DNA of 64,000 nucleotides from Streptomyces spinoverrucosus (GTDB lineage Bacteria; Actinomycetota; Actinomycetes; Streptomycetales; Streptomycetaceae). Shown here piece after piece: positions 10,907 to 52,489 of this stretch. Where the stretch lies: contig NZ_JADPZX010000001.1 in the NCBI RefSeq assembly GCF_015712165.1, positions 7,018,001 through 7,082,000 on the forward strand, read 5' to 3'. Under the pieces are notes generated by a model. It ran no database searches. It saw nothing but the letters and a program-made list of their open reading frames with translations, and was not told where the DNA came from. Each line of letters starts with the position of its first letter. Position 1 is the first letter of the stretch. Made by a program: the position numbers and the translations under genes.

Positions 10907-11200
10907 CGGCCGTGGGTGCTGAGTCTTCCCGGTGTGGGTGTCGGCCCCGTCCTGGGTGCCGGGTCTTCCTGGCGTGGGTGTCGGCCCGGCCGTGGGTGTC
11001 GAGTCTTCCCGGCGTGGGTGTCGGCCCGGCCGTGGGTGCTGAGTCTTCCCGGCGCGGATGTCGACCCGGATCTGGGTGCTGAGTCTTCCCGGCGCGGGCG
11101 TCGACCCGGATCTGGGTGCCGAGTCTTCCCGGCGCGGGCGTCGACCCGGCCCTGGGTGCCGAACCCTCCCAGTGCCGGCGCCGTCCCCGCCCTGGTGCCG
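10907..11200. repeat. 40-bp tandem repeat array, about seven copies
   Basis: Units begin with GAGTCTTCCCGGCGYGGGYG at 10921, 10961, 11001, 11041, 11081 and 11121, with a decayed copy at 11161 and a partial copy before 10921. The period is exactly 40 bp, not a multiple of three. It fills most of the 425-bp gap between the aldolase stop and the hydrolase start. There are no spacers, so it is a minisatellite, not CRISPR. Confidence 0.9.
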
Positions 11201-11305
11201 AACCGTCCCGTACCACCCGGAACAACCCCCCTGTACGCGCCAGGTCGCATCACCCCGTCCGCTCTCCCGCTGGCCGAGGGGCGGGTCGGACAGGACACTG
11301 GACCC

Positions 11306-15773: not shown

Positions 15774-16553
15774 GTGGTCGTACTGCCGGCCGAGGCGATG
15801 CCGACCGATCCCCTCTCCCCGGACACGGAACCCGCCGTCGCCCCGACCCCGCCCCGCGCACCAAGCCGCCTCCTGACAGCGCTGGCCGCCCTCCTTCTCA
15901 CGACCCCTCTCCTTGCCGCCGCCCACCAGGCCCGCCCGGCCCCCTATGGAGACCGCCTCACCGTGCACGCGCCCGTGCAGCACCCCACCCCGCAGCTCCG
16001 CATCCACCGGGCGGCCGTGGAGGCGTACGACCACGCCACCGGAGGACTCCGCTGGCGCTACACCCGCGAAGGCCGCCGCCCCCTGACCGTGCTCCCCGCG
16101 CGCGGGGAGGCGATCACGCTCTGGGACGACGGGCTCGTCACCGACACCGACGGCAGCTCCGTCCGCTGGCACCGCGGCCTACCGGCGGCCGCCGACTGGC
16201 TCCCGGCGCACGGCGGCACGGGCGTACTGCGCCACCTGGGCCGCGGCATCCTCGCCGTCGTCACGCCGCGCCGCATCGCCGCGTACCGCACCGCCGACGG
16301 CGACCTGCGCTGGGTGCTGCCGGCTCGCAAGGGGTGCGCGTTCCGGCCCGAACGCGCGCTGCACCGGGGCCGAGCCCTGCTCGTCGCCCAGCCCTGCGTC
16401 CGCGCTGCCTGGACGGGCCAGCTGGTCGCCGTCGACGACCTCGGCCGCATCACGCCACACCGCACCCCCCTCGGCAACGACACCCCGACCCGACACCCAG
16501 AGCCCCGCGACCGCACCACCGGCCCCCGCGCACGCCCCGAAGGCCCGCCCTAA
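15774..16553 (+). CDS. Putative membrane-anchored beta-propeller (PQQ-like) protein
   Basis: 259-residue protein. After a short N-terminus there is a hydrophobic segment (LLTALAALLLTTPLLAAAH), either signal peptide or anchor. The rest has repeat strands typical of PQQ/quinoprotein-like propellers: VEAYDHATGGLRWRYTREGR, RIAAYRTADGDLRWVLPARK and GQLVAVDDLGRITPHRTPL. Only about three blades are present, so it is short for a closed propeller. GTG at 15774 has AAGGGAG just upstream; ATG at 15798 is the alternative. Divergent from the metallopeptidase. Function unknown. Confidence 0.7.
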   Translation: MVVLPAEAMPTDPLSPDTEPAVAPTPPRAPSRLLTALAALLLTTPLLAAAHQARPAPYGDRLTVHAPVQHPTPQLRIHRAAVEAYDHATGGLRWRYTREGRRPLTVLPARGEAITLWDDGLVTDTDGSSVRWHRGLPAAADWLPAHGGTGVLRHLGRGILAVVTPRRIAAYRTADGDLRWVLPARKGCAFRPERALHRGRALLVAQPCVRAAWTGQLVAVDDLGRITPHRTPLGNDTPTRHPEPRDRTTGPRARPEGPP

Positions 16554-16555
16554 CG

Positions 16556-16725
16556 ATCGCAGGCCCGACACTCGCGGTGGCTCGCCCCAGTAGTCGCAGG
16601 CCCGACACTCGCGGTGGCTCGCCGCAGCGGTCACAAGCCCGACACTCGCGGTGGCTCGCCCCAGCAGTCGCAGGCCTGGCGCTCGCGGTGGCTCGCCCTA
16701 GTGGTCACAAGCCCGGTGCTCGTGC
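16556..16725. repeat. 37-bp tandem repeat array, about 4.5 copies
   Basis: The core CCCGACACTCGCGGTGGCTC recurs with an exact 37-bp period; units begin with (C)AGG/AAG at 16561, 16598, 16635, 16672 and 16709. It starts immediately after the stop codon at 16553. The period is not a multiple of three, and no spacer sequences separate units. Confidence 0.88.
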
Positions 16726-17143: not shown

Positions 17144-18740
<1,597 letters not shown>

Positions 18741-18742
<2 letters not shown>

Positions 18743-18821
18743 TCACTCGCACACCTGACCGCCGCCTGATCACTCGCACACCTGACCGCCGCCTGATCAC
18801 TCGCACACCTGACTGCCGATT
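18741..18821. repeat. 27-bp tandem repeat, three copies, each with GATC
   Basis: Three units of 27 bp beginning GATCACTCGCACACCTGACC at 18741, 18768 and 18795; the first two are identical and the third has three changes at its end. The first unit overlaps the TGA stop of the ABC-F gene. Each unit contributes one GATC to the cluster upstream of gbn. Confidence 0.92.
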
Positions 18822-19149
18822 GATCGCTTGATCAATCGGTCAGCTCGGCTTGATCGAATGGTTGATCCACTGCGTATGGATCATTCGGCCTAGCCGTGAT
18901 CCATCATCTGTGTGAGATCTCCTCGTACCCGGGTGTGTCCTACACCGATTTCCCGGCGAATCCCTTTGTCGACAAGGGCTCGGCCGTGTCGCCTGCCTGA
19001 CCTGGCTCTTCACGGAACAACCCGTTCGGCCGTATGCACACCACTCGCTGGAACCACGGATTCCACTTGTGGGGATGTGCTCCGGTCGTCACAACCCTGT
19101 CGCACGGACCTTGCCGAATGGGTGGCCATGAAGCCCCGGAGGGGTGATC
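18741..19149 (+). promoter_or_regulatory. GATC-rich region upstream of gbn
   Basis: This roughly 450-bp gap has no gene. GATC occurs at 18741, 18768, 18795, 18822, 18830, 18852, 18864, 18879 and 18898 (nine in 161 bp, where about 0.6 is expected by chance), plus 19146. The site at 18879 (GATCATT) and the one at 19146 (GATCATG) fit the reported Gbn consensus GATC followed by (A/T)T. Since the next gene encodes Gbn itself, autoregulation or a nucleation site is plausible. Confidence 0.7.
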
Positions 19150-19188
19150 ATGAGGGGACCAGAGCGCACTTCCCATGAGGAGGCACGG

Positions 19189-19410
19189 GTGGCCGAGACT
19201 CTGAAGAAGGGCAGCCGGGTGACCGGCGCCGCGCGCGACAAGCTCGCGGCAGACCTGAAGAAGAAGTACGACGCCGGTGCGAGCATCCGGGCGTTGGCCG
19301 AGGAGACCGGCCGCTCGTATGGCTTCGTGCACCGCATGCTCAGCGAGTCGGGCGTCACGCTCCGTGGGCGTGGCGGGGCGACGCGGGGCAAGAAGGCCGC
19401 TTCGGCCTGA
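19189..19410 (+). CDS. gbn: Small nucleoid-associated HTH protein Gbn
   Basis: 73-residue basic protein: VAETLKKGSRVTGAARDKLA, then a helix-turn-helix (AGASIRALAEETGRSYGFVH), then a Gly/Arg/Lys-rich tail. It matches, from memory, the actinobacterial nucleoid protein SCO1839/Gbn, which binds GATC followed by (A/T)T, bends DNA and affects sporulation and antibiotic production. The GTG at 19189 is chosen because GAGGAGG ends five bases before it; upstream in-frame codons at 19144 and 19150 lack this. The gene stands alone, with a GATC-dense region upstream. Confidence 0.85.
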   Translation: MAETLKKGSRVTGAARDKLAADLKKKYDAGASIRALAEETGRSYGFVHRMLSESGVTLRGRGGATRGKKAASA

Positions 19411-34913: not shown

Positions 34914-36535
34914 GCCCCGTACAGCAGACCGTTCTCGCGGCCAACGAGGCCAGCGAGCACCGCCCGCTCATCATCACGCTGTTCGCGGTGTTCGTCGTGG
35001 CGACCCTGTTCATCACGGTCTGGGCGGGCCGCCAGACCAAGGACGCGGCCGACTTCTACGCGGGTGGCCGCCAGTTCAGCGCCTTCCAGAACGGACTCGC
35101 GGTCTCCGGCGACTACATGTCGGCCGCGTCGTTCCTCGGCATCGCCGGCGCGATCGCCCTCTTCGGATACGACGGCTTCCTGTACTCCATCGGCTTCCTG
35201 GTCGCCTGGCTGGTCGCCCTGCTGCTGGTGGCCGAGCCACTGCGGAACTCCGGCCGGTACACCATGGGTGACGTCCTCGCCTACCGCATGCGCCAGCGCC
35301 CGGTCCGCACCGCGGCCGGTACCTCCACGATCGTCGTGTCGATCTTCTACCTGCTGGCCCAGATGGCCGGCGCCGGCGTCCTTGTCTCGCTGCTCCTCGG
35401 CATCACCTCGGACGCGGGCAAGGTCGCGATCGTCGCGCTCGTCGGCGTTCTGATGATCGTTTATGTCTCCATTGGCGGTATGAAGGGCACCACCTGGGTT
35501 CAGATGATCAAAGCCGTGCTGCTGATCGGCGGCACGATCCTGATCACCTTCCTGGTGATGCTCAAGTTCAACTTCAACATCTCCGACCTGCTCGGCAGCG
35601 CCGCCGAGAACAGCGGCAAGGGTGCCGCCTTCCTGGAGCCCGGCCTGCAGTACGGCGCCAGCGGCACCTCCAAGCTGGACTTCATCTCCCTCGGCATCGC
35701 CCTGGTGCTCGGCACCGCCGGTCTGCCGCACATCCTGATCCGCTTCTACACGGTGCCCAACGCCAAGGCCGCCCGGAAGTCCGTGAACTGGGCGATCGGC
35801 ATCATCGGCGCCTTCTACCTGATGACCATCGCCCTCGGCTTCGGCGCGGCCGCGCTGATCTCCCAGGACGAGATCATCGCGTCCAACCCGTCCGGCAACA
35901 CGGCCGCCCCGCTGCTCGCCCTGCACCTCGGCGGCGTCGACTCGGCCTGGGGCGCGATCCTGCTGGCCACGATCTCGGCGGTGGCCTTCGCGACGATCCT
36001 CGCCGTGGTCGCCGGCCTCACCCTCGCCTCGTCGTCCTCCTTCGCGCACGACATCTACGCCAACGTCATCCGCAAGGGGAAGGCCACCGAGGGGGAGGAG
36101 ATGAAGGCGGCCCGCTGGGCGACCGTCTTCATCGGCATCGTCTCCATCGCCCTGGGCGCCCTCGCCCGCGACCTCAACGTGGCCGGCCTGGTCGCCCTGG
36201 CGTTCGCGGTCGCCGCGTCCGCCAACCTGCCGACCATCCTGTACAGCCTGTTCTGGAAGCGGTTCACCACCCAGGGCGCGCTGTGGTCGATCTACGGCGG
36301 TCTGATCGTCGCCGTCGGCCTGGTGCTGTTCTCGCCCGTCGTCTCCGGCGACCCCAAGGCGATGTTCCCCAGCGTCGACTTCGCCTGGTTCCCGCTGAAG
36401 AACCCGGGCATCATCTCCATCCCGTTCGGTTTCCTGATGGGCTGGCTCGGCACGGTCCTGTCGAAGGAGGAGCCGGACACCGGCAAGTACGCCGAGCTGG
36501 AGGTCCGGTCCCTGACCGGCACCGGCGCCCACTGA
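34910..36535 (+). CDS. actP: Sodium/solute symporter ActP (acetate permease)
   Basis: 541-residue member of the sodium:solute symporter (SSF) family with about 13 hydrophobic helices. Signatures: TKDAADFYAGGRQFSAFQNG, the SSS motif GDYMSAASFLGIAGAIALFG (Na+ site), VSIGGMKGTTWVQMIKAVLL, TAGLPHILIRFYTVPNAKAA and TLASSSSFAHDIYANV. It imports acetate or related monocarboxylates such as pyruvate or glycolate; acetate is inferred from family similarity and the DUF485 partner. ATG at 34910. A strong terminator follows at 36549. Confidence 0.93.
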   Translation: MSPVQQTVLAANEASEHRPLIITLFAVFVVATLFITVWAGRQTKDAADFYAGGRQFSAFQNGLAVSGDYMSAASFLGIAGAIALFGYDGFLYSIGFLVAWLVALLLVAEPLRNSGRYTMGDVLAYRMRQRPVRTAAGTSTIVVSIFYLLAQMAGAGVLVSLLLGITSDAGKVAIVALVGVLMIVYVSIGGMKGTTWVQMIKAVLLIGGTILITFLVMLKFNFNISDLLGSAAENSGKGAAFLEPGLQYGASGTSKLDFISLGIALVLGTAGLPHILIRFYTVPNAKAARKSVNWAIGIIGAFYLMTIALGFGAAALISQDEIIASNPSGNTAAPLLALHLGGVDSAWGAILLATISAVAFATILAVVAGLTLASSSSFAHDIYANVIRKGKATEGEEMKAARWATVFIGIVSIALGALARDLNVAGLVALAFAVAASANLPTILYSLFWKRFTTQGALWSIYGGLIVAVGLVLFSPVVSGDPKAMFPSVDFAWFPLKNPGIISIPFGFLMGWLGTVLSKEEPDTGKYAELEVRSLTGTGAH

Positions 36536-44352: not shown

Positions 44353-45120
44353 ATGAGCGGAATTCTCGAGGGCAAGCGCGTCCTGATCACCGGTGTGCTG
44401 ACGGAGGCCTCCATCGCCTTCCACGCCGCGAAGCTGGCCCAGGAGCAGGGCGCCGAGGTCATCCTGACCGCGTTCCCGCGGCCCACGCTGACCGAGCGCA
44501 TCGCCAAGAAGCTCCCCAAGCCCACCAAGGTCATCGAGCTCGACGTGACCAACGACGAGCACCTCGGCCGCCTCGCGGACGTCGTCGGCGAGGAGCTGGG
44601 CGGCCTGGACGGCGTCGTGCACTCCATCGGCTTCGCGCCGCAGGACGCGCTCGGCGGCAACTTCCTCAACACGCCGTTCGAGTCGGTCGCCACGGCCATG
44701 CACGTCTCGGCGTACTCCCTGAAGTCGCTGACCATGGCCTGTCTGCCGCTGATGCAGAACGGCGGCTCGGTCGTGGGTCTCACCTTCGACGCGCAGTTCG
44801 CCTGGCCGCAGTACGACTGGATGGGCCCGGCCAAGGCCGCCCTGGAGGCCACCAACCGCTACATGGCGCGTGACCTGGGCAAGCAGAACATCCGCTGCAA
44901 CCTCATCTCGGCGGGCCCGCTCGGCTCCATGGCCGCCAAGTCCATCCCGGGCTTCAGCGAACTGGCGTCCGTGTGGGACAACCGCTCCCCGCTGGAGTGG
45001 GACCTGAAGGACCCGGAGCCGGCCGGCCGCGGTGTCGTCGCCCTGCTGAGCGACTGGTTCCCGAAGACGACGGGCGAGATCATCCACGTGGACGGCGGTC
45101 TGCACGCCATCGGCGCCTGA
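44353..45120 (+). CDS. fabI: Enoyl-[ACP] reductase FabI/InhA
   Basis: 255-residue NADH-dependent enoyl-ACP reductase, the last reductive step of type II fatty acid synthesis. N-terminus GILEGKRVLITGVLTEASIA has the InhA-like nucleotide fold. The family's Y-x6-K pair lies in QYDWMGPAKAALEATNRYMA, and SAGPLGSMAAKSIPGF and DGGLHAIGA follow. Sequence resembles mycobacterial InhA, the target of isoniazid, diazaborines and triclosan. Starts 5 bp after fabG; a hairpin follows at 45176. Confidence 0.96.
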   Translation: MSGILEGKRVLITGVLTEASIAFHAAKLAQEQGAEVILTAFPRPTLTERIAKKLPKPTKVIELDVTNDEHLGRLADVVGEELGGLDGVVHSIGFAPQDALGGNFLNTPFESVATAMHVSAYSLKSLTMACLPLMQNGGSVVGLTFDAQFAWPQYDWMGPAKAALEATNRYMARDLGKQNIRCNLISAGPLGSMAAKSIPGFSELASVWDNRSPLEWDLKDPEPAGRGVVALLSDWFPKTTGEIIHVDGGLHAIGA

Positions 45121-45175
45121 TCGATCGTTCACCGGGTGATCACCTGATCACCTGATCACCTGAACACTGCTGATC
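45119..45175. repeat. GATC cluster with 8-bp direct repeats after fabI
   Basis: Six GATC sites in 57 bp (45119, 45123, 45138, 45146, 45154, 45172), with GATCACCT repeated in tandem three times at 45138-45161. It starts in the fabI stop codon and ends at the terminator. This is a second candidate Gbn-rich site, although none has the full (A/T)T extension. Confidence 0.6.
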
Positions 45176-45207
45176 AAGGGCTCGCATCCAGCCGGGTGCG
45201 GGCCCTT
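45176..45207 (+). terminator. Terminator after fabG-fabI
   Basis: AAGGGCTCGCATCC pairs with GGGTGCGGGCCCTT, a 14-bp stem with two mismatched positions around a four-nt loop, about 55 bp after the fabI stop. Confidence 0.75.
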
Positions 45208-50374: not shown

Positions 50375-52489
50375 TCACCGGCCACGCTTCGGCCGCCCCG
50401 GGGGTGGAGGACCCGGAGGTGGGGGACCGGGCGGCGGCGAGCCGTCCTCCGGGGAAGAGGAACCCCGAGGCCGCCTTCCGGACGACGAGGCCCCTGGCGT
50501 CCCCCGAGGCGTCGGAGGAGGCGGCGGCTCGAACGGCCGGGCGACGGTCGGAGCGCCGTAGACATCGTCGCCGTCTCCCCCCGGCGGCCGTACCCCGTCG
50601 CCTGCCGGCGGCCACAGGTCTTCGCGGTTGGGCGCGCGCACGGTCTCGCCCTCAGCCGTCCCACCGGGTGGCCGTAGGTTCTCGCCCGCAGCGATCCCAC
50701 CGGGTGGCCGTAGGTTCTCGCCCGCAGCGATCCCACCGGGTGGCCGTAGGTTCTCGCCCGCAGCGATCCCACCGGGTGGCCGTACGCTCTCGCCCGCAGC
50801 GATCCCACCGGGTGGCCGTACGCTCTCGCCCCCGGCCATCCCGCCGGGCGGCCGTACCCCCTCGCCCCCACCGGGCGGCCGTGCCCCCTCGCCCCCAGCC
50901 ACCCCACCGGGCGCCCCCGCACCCCCGCCCCCAGCCACCCCACCCGGTGGCCGCGCGTCCTGCGGCTTCCGGAGTCCGGTCGGGAGCCGCAGATACGGAT
51001 TGGTGTCGGGGTTCGGCGGCCGGTACGGCGTACTCGGCACGTACGGCCCCGAGGTCCCCGCATACCCCCGCACCCCCGCCGCCCCGTCACTGAGTGCCAG
51101 CGGTGCAACCTGCCGCCCCGCAGCCCCACTCGCGTACGCGAGCAGTGCCCCCACAGCCCCCGCACCGGCCCCCCACAGCGCGCCGAGCAGCAGCGCCATG
51201 CCGAGGTGCCCGCGCAGTTCGACCCCCGCCCCGAACGCGTCGAACCCCAGCACGGACAGCGAGGCGTCCACGGACACCTCCGTCAGCCACCCGAGCAAGG
51301 GCAACGCCAACGCGGTCACGACCCCCAGCCGCAGCGCACACCGCCCGGCGAAGCCAAGAGCACCTGAACCGCGTACGCCCCCCTGGGCAGCCGCCCCCAC
51401 CGGCGTGCGCACCGCCACCAGCACCCCCGCCAGCAGCATCATGACCGCCGCTGCCACCCCCAGCAGCCACACCCGACCGTCCAGCTCCGCCAGCCGCCCG
51501 AGCGTCACCGGCTGGTCCGAGTCGACCAGCAGGTCGTCCAGCGGATCCGGCAGAAAGCGGGTCAGCGCCCCCGACGCCTCCCCGTGCCACGGCACGAACA
51601 GGCCGATGGGAATGCCCAGCCACACCCCGTTCGGCGCCCCCAGCAGCGCCGCCCCCGCGATCCGCCGGGGATGGTCGTCGCCGATCGCCGCGTACGCCGC
51701 CGCCGCGAGCCCCGCCGCCACCGCCATCAGGAGCACCGTGACCAGCGCGGACACGGCCGGCCGTACGACCCGGTGCACCGCCTGCCAGCCGCGTGGCAGG
51801 GGAGTGCGGCGGGAGGCCAGCAGCGCGACCAGCAGCACGCCGGTGGCCCAGCCCAGCCCGCCGAGCAGCGTGGGTGCGGTGTCGACGCCGAACCCCACCG
51901 CCGCCTCCGCGTCGATCAGGTCGCCGACCCGGTCGGGCAGCAGCCCCCCGATGTCCCCCACGTCACCGAGCCCGGGAATCTCGATGCCTCCGGAACCCGA
52001 GCCGCCGGGCAGGTCGTCGAGGCCGAGTGCGCCCCCGTCGATCGTGATGACGTCGTGCCCGGCCCACGCCAGGCCGCCCAGCGTCGCCACGAACAGCGCG
52101 ACCACCGCCCCCGCGCGCGCGAGGAGTTCGGACGGCGAGATCACAACTCCCGCCGCCCGCAGGGATCGTAGAAAGAACCAGGACAAAAGGAGCGCGCCGA
52201 CGAGGCTCACGCCCAATGGCGTGATCTCGATGGCCGTGGTGGCCTCCGCGCCGGTCAGTCCGAAGGCGGACACGTCACCGGACGGCGTGACCGAACCACC
52301 GGCCCCAAGGGCCACCACCGCCGCGGTCATCGGCCCCAGCGAACCGGCCGAGTCCGCCTCCAGCAGACGCAGTCCGAGCGCCGCCGTACCCGCCATTCCG
52401 ATCAACGCCCAGCTCACGGAGGCGATCGCGGACAGCAGGATGTCGACCCATGGCAGCCTCGTGCCGTATCCGGATGACTCGACACTCAT
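50375..52489 (-). CDS. Streptophobe family membrane protein with repeat tail
   Basis: 704-residue protein. The N-terminal ~470 residues contain about ten hydrophobic helices (for example WVDILLSAIASVSWALIGMA and AVVALFVATLGGLAWAGHDV), typical of the Streptomyces 'streptophobe' family, function unknown. The C-terminal ~230 residues are disordered, rich in Pro/Gly, with a 12-residue repeat RPPGGIAAGENL present in several near-identical copies, ending with a Pro-rich tail (PPPGPPPPGPPPPGRPKRGR). ATG at 52489 chosen, with GGGGGG upstream; in-frame ATGs at 52531 and further up exist. Confidence 0.85.
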   Translation of the reverse strand: MSVESSGYGTRLPWVDILLSAIASVSWALIGMAGTAALGLRLLEADSAGSLGPMTAAVVALGAGGSVTPSGDVSAFGLTGAEATTAIEITPLGVSLVGALLLSWFFLRSLRAAGVVISPSELLARAGAVVALFVATLGGLAWAGHDVITIDGGALGLDDLPGGSGSGGIEIPGLGDVGDIGGLLPDRVGDLIDAEAAVGFGVDTAPTLLGGLGWATGVLLVALLASRRTPLPRGWQAVHRVVRPAVSALVTVLLMAVAAGLAAAAYAAIGDDHPRRIAGAALLGAPNGVWLGIPIGLFVPWHGEASGALTRFLPDPLDDLLVDSDQPVTLGRLAELDGRVWLLGVAAAVMMLLAGVLVAVRTPVGAAAQGGVRGSGALGFAGRCALRLGVVTALALPLLGWLTEVSVDASLSVLGFDAFGAGVELRGHLGMALLLGALWGAGAGAVGALLAYASGAAGRQVAPLALSDGAAGVRGYAGTSGPYVPSTPYRPPNPDTNPYLRLPTGLRKPQDARPPGGVAGGGGAGAPGGVAGGEGARPPGGGEGVRPPGGMAGGESVRPPGGIAAGESVRPPGGIAAGENLRPPGGIAAGENLRPPGGIAAGENLRPPGGTAEGETVRAPNREDLWPPAGDGVRPPGGDGDDVYGAPTVARPFEPPPPPTPRGTPGASSSGRRPRGSSSPEDGSPPPGPPPPGPPPPGRPKRGR
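50640..50960 (-). repeat. 36-bp coding repeats in the streptophobe tail
   Basis: A 36-bp unit recurs at 50684, 50720, 50756 and 50792 with few changes, and decays toward both sides. Because 36 is divisible by three, the protein repeats in frame (RPPGGIAAGENL). Such arrays expand and contract by slippage. Confidence 0.9.

Follow-up and report, generated by a model that had tools for sequence, protein, structure and literature searches.

A Gbn site at a promoter-like position upstream of gbn suggests that this nucleoid-associated protein limits its own production in actinomycetes

Introduction

In E. coli, the genes of the nucleoid-associated proteins fis and hns are negatively autoregulated, and GATC clusters are known from oriC and in connection with SeqA.

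The closest described system to the locus discussed here is gbn (SCO1839) of S. coelicolor, which encodes the 73-aa protein Gbn (Du et al. 2022, PMC9239103). The ChIP peak of Gbn at the gbn promoter has its summit at -326/-324 (67.75- and 58.18-fold), the top enrichment of a table that covers the discussed genes only (Table 1), and a gbn fragment from -561 to -239 with eight GATC was among the DNAs tested by EMSA (PMC9239103). At GATC without a following AT or TT, ChIP coverage was not raised and EMSA binding occurred at lower affinity; methylated GATC is bound less well by Gbn, and S. coelicolor is without Dam methylation (PMC9239103). Expression of gbn goes up during development, its loss makes sporulation start 2-5 h sooner, an excess of Gbn causes a delay of ~17 h, and the effect of the protein overall is a mild suppressive trend (PMC9239103).

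Binding of Gbn at the gbn promoter is already known for S. coelicolor. The Results and Discussion of PMC9239103 report neither a dependence of gbn on Gbn nor the -43 site described below, its register, its conservation or a 27-bp triplicate, and the gbn row of its Table 1 gives no expression value. A test of gbn autoregulation was not found in searches of an open-access library, and the word 'autoregulation' is absent from the Streptomyces Gbn papers among the matches listed. The level of Gbn bears on the timing of Streptomyces development, and how this level is set is unreported in PMC9239103.

The gbn locus

The window is the whole stretch of 64,000 nucleotides that was analysed; coordinates refer to it, and negative numbers are counted from the gbn start codon. 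The features needed in what follows are:

17144..18742, + strand, two-domain ABC protein gene (open reading frame; Pfam ABC_tran, two stretches)
18736..18825, no strand, 27-bp tandem repeat of 3.3 copies with one GATCAC per copy (repeat search)
18816..18839, no strand, perfect 10-bp inverted repeat CCGATTGATC-N4-GATCAATCGG with GATC at 18822 and 18830 (sequence)
18852..18919, + strand, distal array of Gbn sites, with GATC at -337, -325, -310 (GATCAT), -291 and -273 (alignment)
19050..19064, no strand, palindrome GGAACCACGGATTCC, candidate AtrA site (GGAA-N6/7-TTCC at -200..-90 in 135/150 Streptomyces loci)
19122..19127, + strand, -35-like element GTGGCC (at this register GTGGCC in 147/150, CTGGCC in 3/150)
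19146..19151, + strand, GATCAT, full Gbn motif at the -10 hexamer position of a predicted core promoter, 18-bp spacer
19178..19183, + strand, ribosome-binding site AGGAGG (read from the sequence; near-invariant in the Streptomyces alignment)
19189..19410, + strand, gbn, 73 codons, GTG start, GATC-binding nucleoid-associated protein (HTH_58; start-codon alignment and profile match)

The HTH_58 domain of Gbn was found with an E value of 3.1e-33 in a profile search on an 88-aa reading, and a Gbn match was obtained in 198 of 199 Streptomyces genomes. The start is most likely the GTG at 19189, which gives a protein of the same size as the published SCO1839; this GTG is present in all 171 rows of the Streptomyces comparison (window included), and PMC9239103 states that the gbn start codon needed a change to ATG. 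Given this start, the cluster extends from -448 to -273 and the last GATC (19146) lies at -43. The gene upstream of gbn, assigned to the ABC-F type from its two ABC_tran matches, occupies the same place in 171/171 rows, and the cluster's first GATC (18741) shares bases with its stop codon (18740-18742).

The GATC cluster and the 27-bp repeat

The GATC sites of the cluster begin at 18741, 18768, 18795, 18822, 18830, 18852, 18864, 18879 and 18898, and a recount gave the nine per 161 bp (18741-18901) upstream of gbn that the first-pass annotation had described; a tenth at 18916 makes ten per 179 bp, and there is one further at 19146. The statement that the full GATCWT occurs solely at 18879 and 19146 was also borne out, on both strands of 18741..19149; a further GATCAT at 18670, outside this range, lies inside the ABC-F coding sequence. 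The cluster is the densest GATC spot of the window, the runner-up being a separate spot with 7 per 161 bp at 45078. The highest count per 161 bp across 300 first-order Markov windows was 7, random placement of the window's 397 GATC sites gave at least nine per 161 bp in 7 of 2000 trials, and, with the Markov model taken from the intergenic region alone, at least ten sites have p = 0.008. The window as a whole is GATC-rich (397 sites vs 279 in shuffles), and triples of GATC within ~60 bp are frequent genome-wide, at 1561 places.

Eight GATC per 250 bp are found at 35329-35590 of the window. The spot at 45078-45180, in which TGATCACC is repeated 3.9 times, lies just past the stop of the open reading frame 44353-45120, which looks like an enoyl-ACP reductase gene by its sequence, and it resembles the gbn spot in that a tandem repeat with GATC comes after a stop codon that itself reads TGATC. 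Other tandem-repeat arrays are located at 10907-11201 (40-bp unit), 16542-16715 (37/74 bp) and 50640-50953 (36 bp).

The 27-bp triplicate is indeed present, as a tandem repeat of 3.3 copies. A 24-base core of its unit occurs at three places genome-wide with up to three mismatches, all of them upstream of gbn. Across the 171 Streptomyces rows, three copies of the core are found solely in the window (row L002 is the same place), one in L001 and otherwise none; over the last 603 nt of the ABC-F gene L001 is 96% identical to the window, and so, at 97%, is L003, which has zero copies. The triplicate seems to have arisen recently in this lineage, through a local tandem duplication by which weak sites were gained. 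The inverted repeat at 18816..18839 is also found in L001, with one base pair altered on both sides. Another route to a dense cluster is seen in L124, whose 406-bp intergenic region contains twelve GATC, several of them at 12-bp steps.

Conservation of Gbn sites within Streptomyces

The comparison covered 170 Streptomyces loci and the window (171 rows), reduced to 150 nonredundant regions when L002, near-identical upstream sequences and regions longer than 480 nt were dropped. Eleven of the 150 lack an exact GGATCATTC anchor and were excluded from the variable-region counts; counts beyond -340 leave out 77 of the 150, these 11 and another 66 that are too short.

Two or three gene-strand GATCWT are found in the intergenic region of 169/171 rows, and one in L061 and L144; the motif reaches 6.1 per kb there, as against 0.64 per kb in the flanks. 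Conservation is concentrated in two blocks, block A (18863-18929) and block B (19109-19188), the latter nearly invariant. The core of the distal array is formed by the sites at -325 (GATC in 133/150), -310 (147/150, all GATCWT) and -291 (146/150), all in block A; the flanking sites are less well kept (-337, immediately ahead of the block, in 67/150; -273, inside it, in 88/150). GATCAT near -43 (-41 to -44), within block B, is present in 150/150. The sites at 18741, 18768, 18795, 18822 and 18830 align to GATC in 11, 1, 2, 3 and 2 of the 150 regions, respectively.

Comparison of published positions places the sites at -325, -310 and -291 at the same distance as the S. coelicolor summit, which the first two adjoin. 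Exactly eight GATC at -561..-239, the number described for S. coelicolor, are found in 37/150 loci, and in 36 of these one of the sites falls between -324 and -326, where the published summit lies. An AtrA site has been predicted in the gbn promoter (PMC9239103), and the palindrome GGAACCACGGATTCC (19050-19064) is possibly that site.

The inverted repeat of the array, ATGGATCA/TGATCCAT, was considered as an RNA hairpin and rejected: its outermost two pairs are non-Watson-Crick in 62 and 38 of the 150 sequences, and at most one sequence among the 150 has another Watson-Crick type. Judged by this pairing, the distal array is not an RNA hairpin. An Rfam search of the gbn upstream region gave no match up to E 1, and a terminator scan of the same region found no terminator-like site.

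The proximal site beyond Streptomyces

Two further sets were examined: 40 loci fetched of 51 other-genus genomes of Streptomycetaceae (16 genera), and a distant set of loci from 93 of 94 matching genomes in 29 other actinomycete families, one match that starts at a contig end being omitted. All 40 loci of the former have GATCWT between -40 and -43, corresponding to the GATCAT near -43. In the distant set, GATCWT on either strand is present at -110..-10 in 74/93 loci and 27/29 families, compared with 0 to 21 of 93 loci in each of the remaining 100-bp bins from -700 to +400. The control region upstream of the neighbouring ABC-F gene (readable in 53/93, 40/40 and 123/150 loci of the distant, other-genus and Streptomyces sets) has the motif in 2/53 loci of the distant set; loci within one family are related, so that a Fisher comparison of gbn with ABC-F upstream regions does not consist of independent tests, and binomial values, which depend on a chosen rate, were given no weight. 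A de novo, family-weighted hexamer test of -110..-10 ranked GATCAT first, followed by overlapping hexamers, with GATCTT tenth.

The site is missing at -110..-10 in 19/93 distant loci, which include 6/6 of family f4 and 2/2 of family f29, with Gbn proteins 54-76% identical to that of the window. Distant Gbn paralogues (L319, L320 and L321; 64-65% identity) have GATCWT at -41 or -43, in 3/6 loci. In families f13 and f17, GATC pairs with a distance of 19 bp were considered as counterparts of the distal array and rejected, being the last codons and stop of ABC-F; therefore, the array looks like a feature of the Streptomycetaceae on present alignments. Within this family, the exact 19-bp pair beginning with GATCWT occurs in 13/40 other-genus loci.

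A promoter-like register

The -43 site stands in a fixed register with the -35-like element. T[AG]GC lies exactly 23 nt before the GATCWT hexamer in 150/150 Streptomyces loci, in 39/40 of the other genera and in 47 of the 74 site-bearing distant loci (17/27 families), and in 0/817 of the other GATCWT of the same loci, counted on the gene strand only. The next-best offset of T[AG]GC in the distant set is shared by 10 loci of one family, and the register is absent in 27/74. In loci whose Gbn motif faces the other way, CATGAT or GAAGAT occupies the register and the next base is a C, which completes GATC. In two loci of family f24, a CATGAT/CATCAT box remains at the register and GATC is lost; therefore, the box can persist without the Gbn site, and most loci retain the two together.

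From their spacing and position, GTGGCC and GATCAT would be the -35 and -10 elements of the gbn promoter. A scan of the gbn upstream region with the sigma-70 consensus called no promoter. The -35-like element could reflect input from an activator or from a sigma factor so far unrecognised. The composite pattern KTRGCS-N18-GATCWT, considered as the mark of a wider regulon, has 17 matches genome-wide, a number that weighs against the autoregulatory reading given below.

Autoregulation and the alternatives

Taken together, these observations make it reasonably probable that the region upstream of gbn is an autoregulatory control region in which Gbn occludes its own core promoter, and to which a distal array was added in Streptomyces. 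Gbn would bind the GATCAT at the -10 position of the core promoter (19122-19127 / 19146-19151), from which transcription is predicted to start near 19158, ~31 nt before the GTG; in Streptomyces it would also bind the distal GATC array, from -337 to -273. A Gbn molecule on the -10 site would exclude RNA polymerase, and Gbn would limit its own synthesis by negative feedback, while the distal array would either raise the local occupancy of Gbn or supply a second layer. That the effect is repression, and that the array has a role, is what we infer, the former because of the position of the site and the mild suppressive trend described in PMC9239103. The place of the -43 site, at an apparent start signal in most of the related families examined, suggests likewise that Gbn limits its own production. 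On the other side, the published summit lies at the distal array rather than at -43, which counts against this reading, as do the negative sigma-70 scan, the distant loci that lack the site (19/93) or the register (27/74), and the two f24 loci with a box and no GATC. Self-control of gbn appears likely.

The first-pass annotation had derived autoregulation from GATC density. This is supported in part, because binding of Gbn has been published and Gbn sites are conserved in relatives, but density does not carry the signal. The ChIP peak that it envisaged exists in S. coelicolor, as described above; the count of sites in relatives did reveal conserved Gbn sites upstream of gbn, but what is conserved is the core array and the GATCAT at -43, not the density. 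Its other suggestion, a strong nucleation site, is not supported by tethered-particle motion, in which 685-bp gbn promoter DNA with ten sites showed only slight stiffening (PMC9239103).

That density is decisive, and that the 27-bp repeats were retained for the Gbn sites added by each copy, is a very doubtful proposal. It can draw on the excess of GATC beyond -340 (32 in 73 loci vs 13.4 in shuffles; 27 vs 11.9 without the window) and on L124, L084 and L007, where extra GATC are spaced by 12-bp steps, so additional sites may be favoured when they arise, a suggestion based on few events. However, the unit is specific to one lineage, with three copies here, one in one relative and zero in the rest, and these copies hold GATCAC rather than GATCWT. 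As a conserved trait, density was rejected: GATC exceeds first-order Markov expectation 1.5-fold in the 150 Streptomyces intergenic regions, where GTAC (4.5), GGCC (1.8) and GCGC (1.6) surpass it among palindromic tetramers, and among 121 loci of at least 9 kb the 180-bp stretch richest in GATC falls in the gbn region in only 72, with ties in 26 and a denser place elsewhere in 23. By these comparisons, density and triplicate are secondary and neither carries the signal; attention moves from them to the single GATCAT near -43. A cluster that senses methylation in the manner of Dam/SeqA can be given almost no weight, as only the density of GATC favours it, against 0 matches to MethyltransfD12 (PF02086) in this genome (the E. 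coli control matches) and the lack of Dam methylation in S. coelicolor.

The proposals that concern the -43 site itself require closer consideration. Binding could be passive, with Gbn sitting on the array and on -43 as on thousands of other GATCWT and the array acting as a reservoir with no effect on gbn. Most strongly bound promoters are indeed unresponsive to gbn deletion (9.5% respond vs 6.9% overall; PMC9239103), but a mere reservoir needs neither the fixed T[AG]GC register nor a full motif retained near the start codon in 27/29 families, and such titration is unlikely. The hexamer could also be conserved solely as the -10 box of a particular type of promoter, with the Gbn motif secondary, as the two f24 loci with a box and no GATC would have it; this is quite improbable in view of the motif that appears on either strand at one register (GATCAT, CATGATC, GAAGATC), including the outside base that completes GATC, and of the known binding of S. 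coelicolor Gbn to the gbn promoter region (PMC9239103). Finally, a longer Gbn of 88 or 86 aa could begin at GATCATG (ATG 19150, preceded by GGAGGGG), whose conservation would then be that of coding sequence. Read in the gbn frame, the 45-nt leader of Streptomyces does show its greatest variation at third codon positions (0.076 vs 0.017 and 0.009), and the frame is open in 125/150 loci; yet it is interrupted between GATCATG and the GTG in 25/150 Streptomyces and 32/40 other-genus loci, in which the GATCAT site persists, and in other families the site shifts in distance and orientation relative to the gbn start. The longer protein was rejected despite the third-position bias and is highly improbable; the leader upstream of the GTG is, on this pattern of interruptions, not generally coding.

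Occlusion of its own core promoter by Gbn is the preferred reading, and it may have a broader form. A dedicated, non-consensus gbn promoter, [GC]T[AG]GC[GC]-N18-GATCAT or its flipped forms, with a -10 box that doubles as a Gbn site, could be common to the actinomycetes, the array of the Streptomycetaceae having come later; we regard this form as evenly balanced between right and wrong. As part of it, feedback would be built into the gbn promoter and would have been retained while the flanks, the distance to the start and the strand of the site changed. Being conserved and promoter-like in its position, the site would constitute a precise, testable switch, and a self-limiting design is indicated in most of the actinomycete families examined.

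Comparison with known systems

The region upstream of gbn shares with E. coli oriC and the SeqA clusters a high local density of GATC; it differs from them in that no Dam-type methylase was found in this genome and in that Gbn has less affinity for methylated GATC (PMC9239103). The gene is the same as gbn (SCO1839) of S. coelicolor, where a GATC-rich region from -561 to -239 is described; the 27-bp triplicate of this strain is not mentioned in PMC9239103. The likeness to fis and hns of E. coli is one of arrangement: a nucleoid protein binds at multiple sites near its own promoter, including sites at the core promoter, which for gbn is a predicted one. Gbn is, however, an unrelated small HTH_58 protein that recognises a short sequence motif, and its repression of gbn is deduced.
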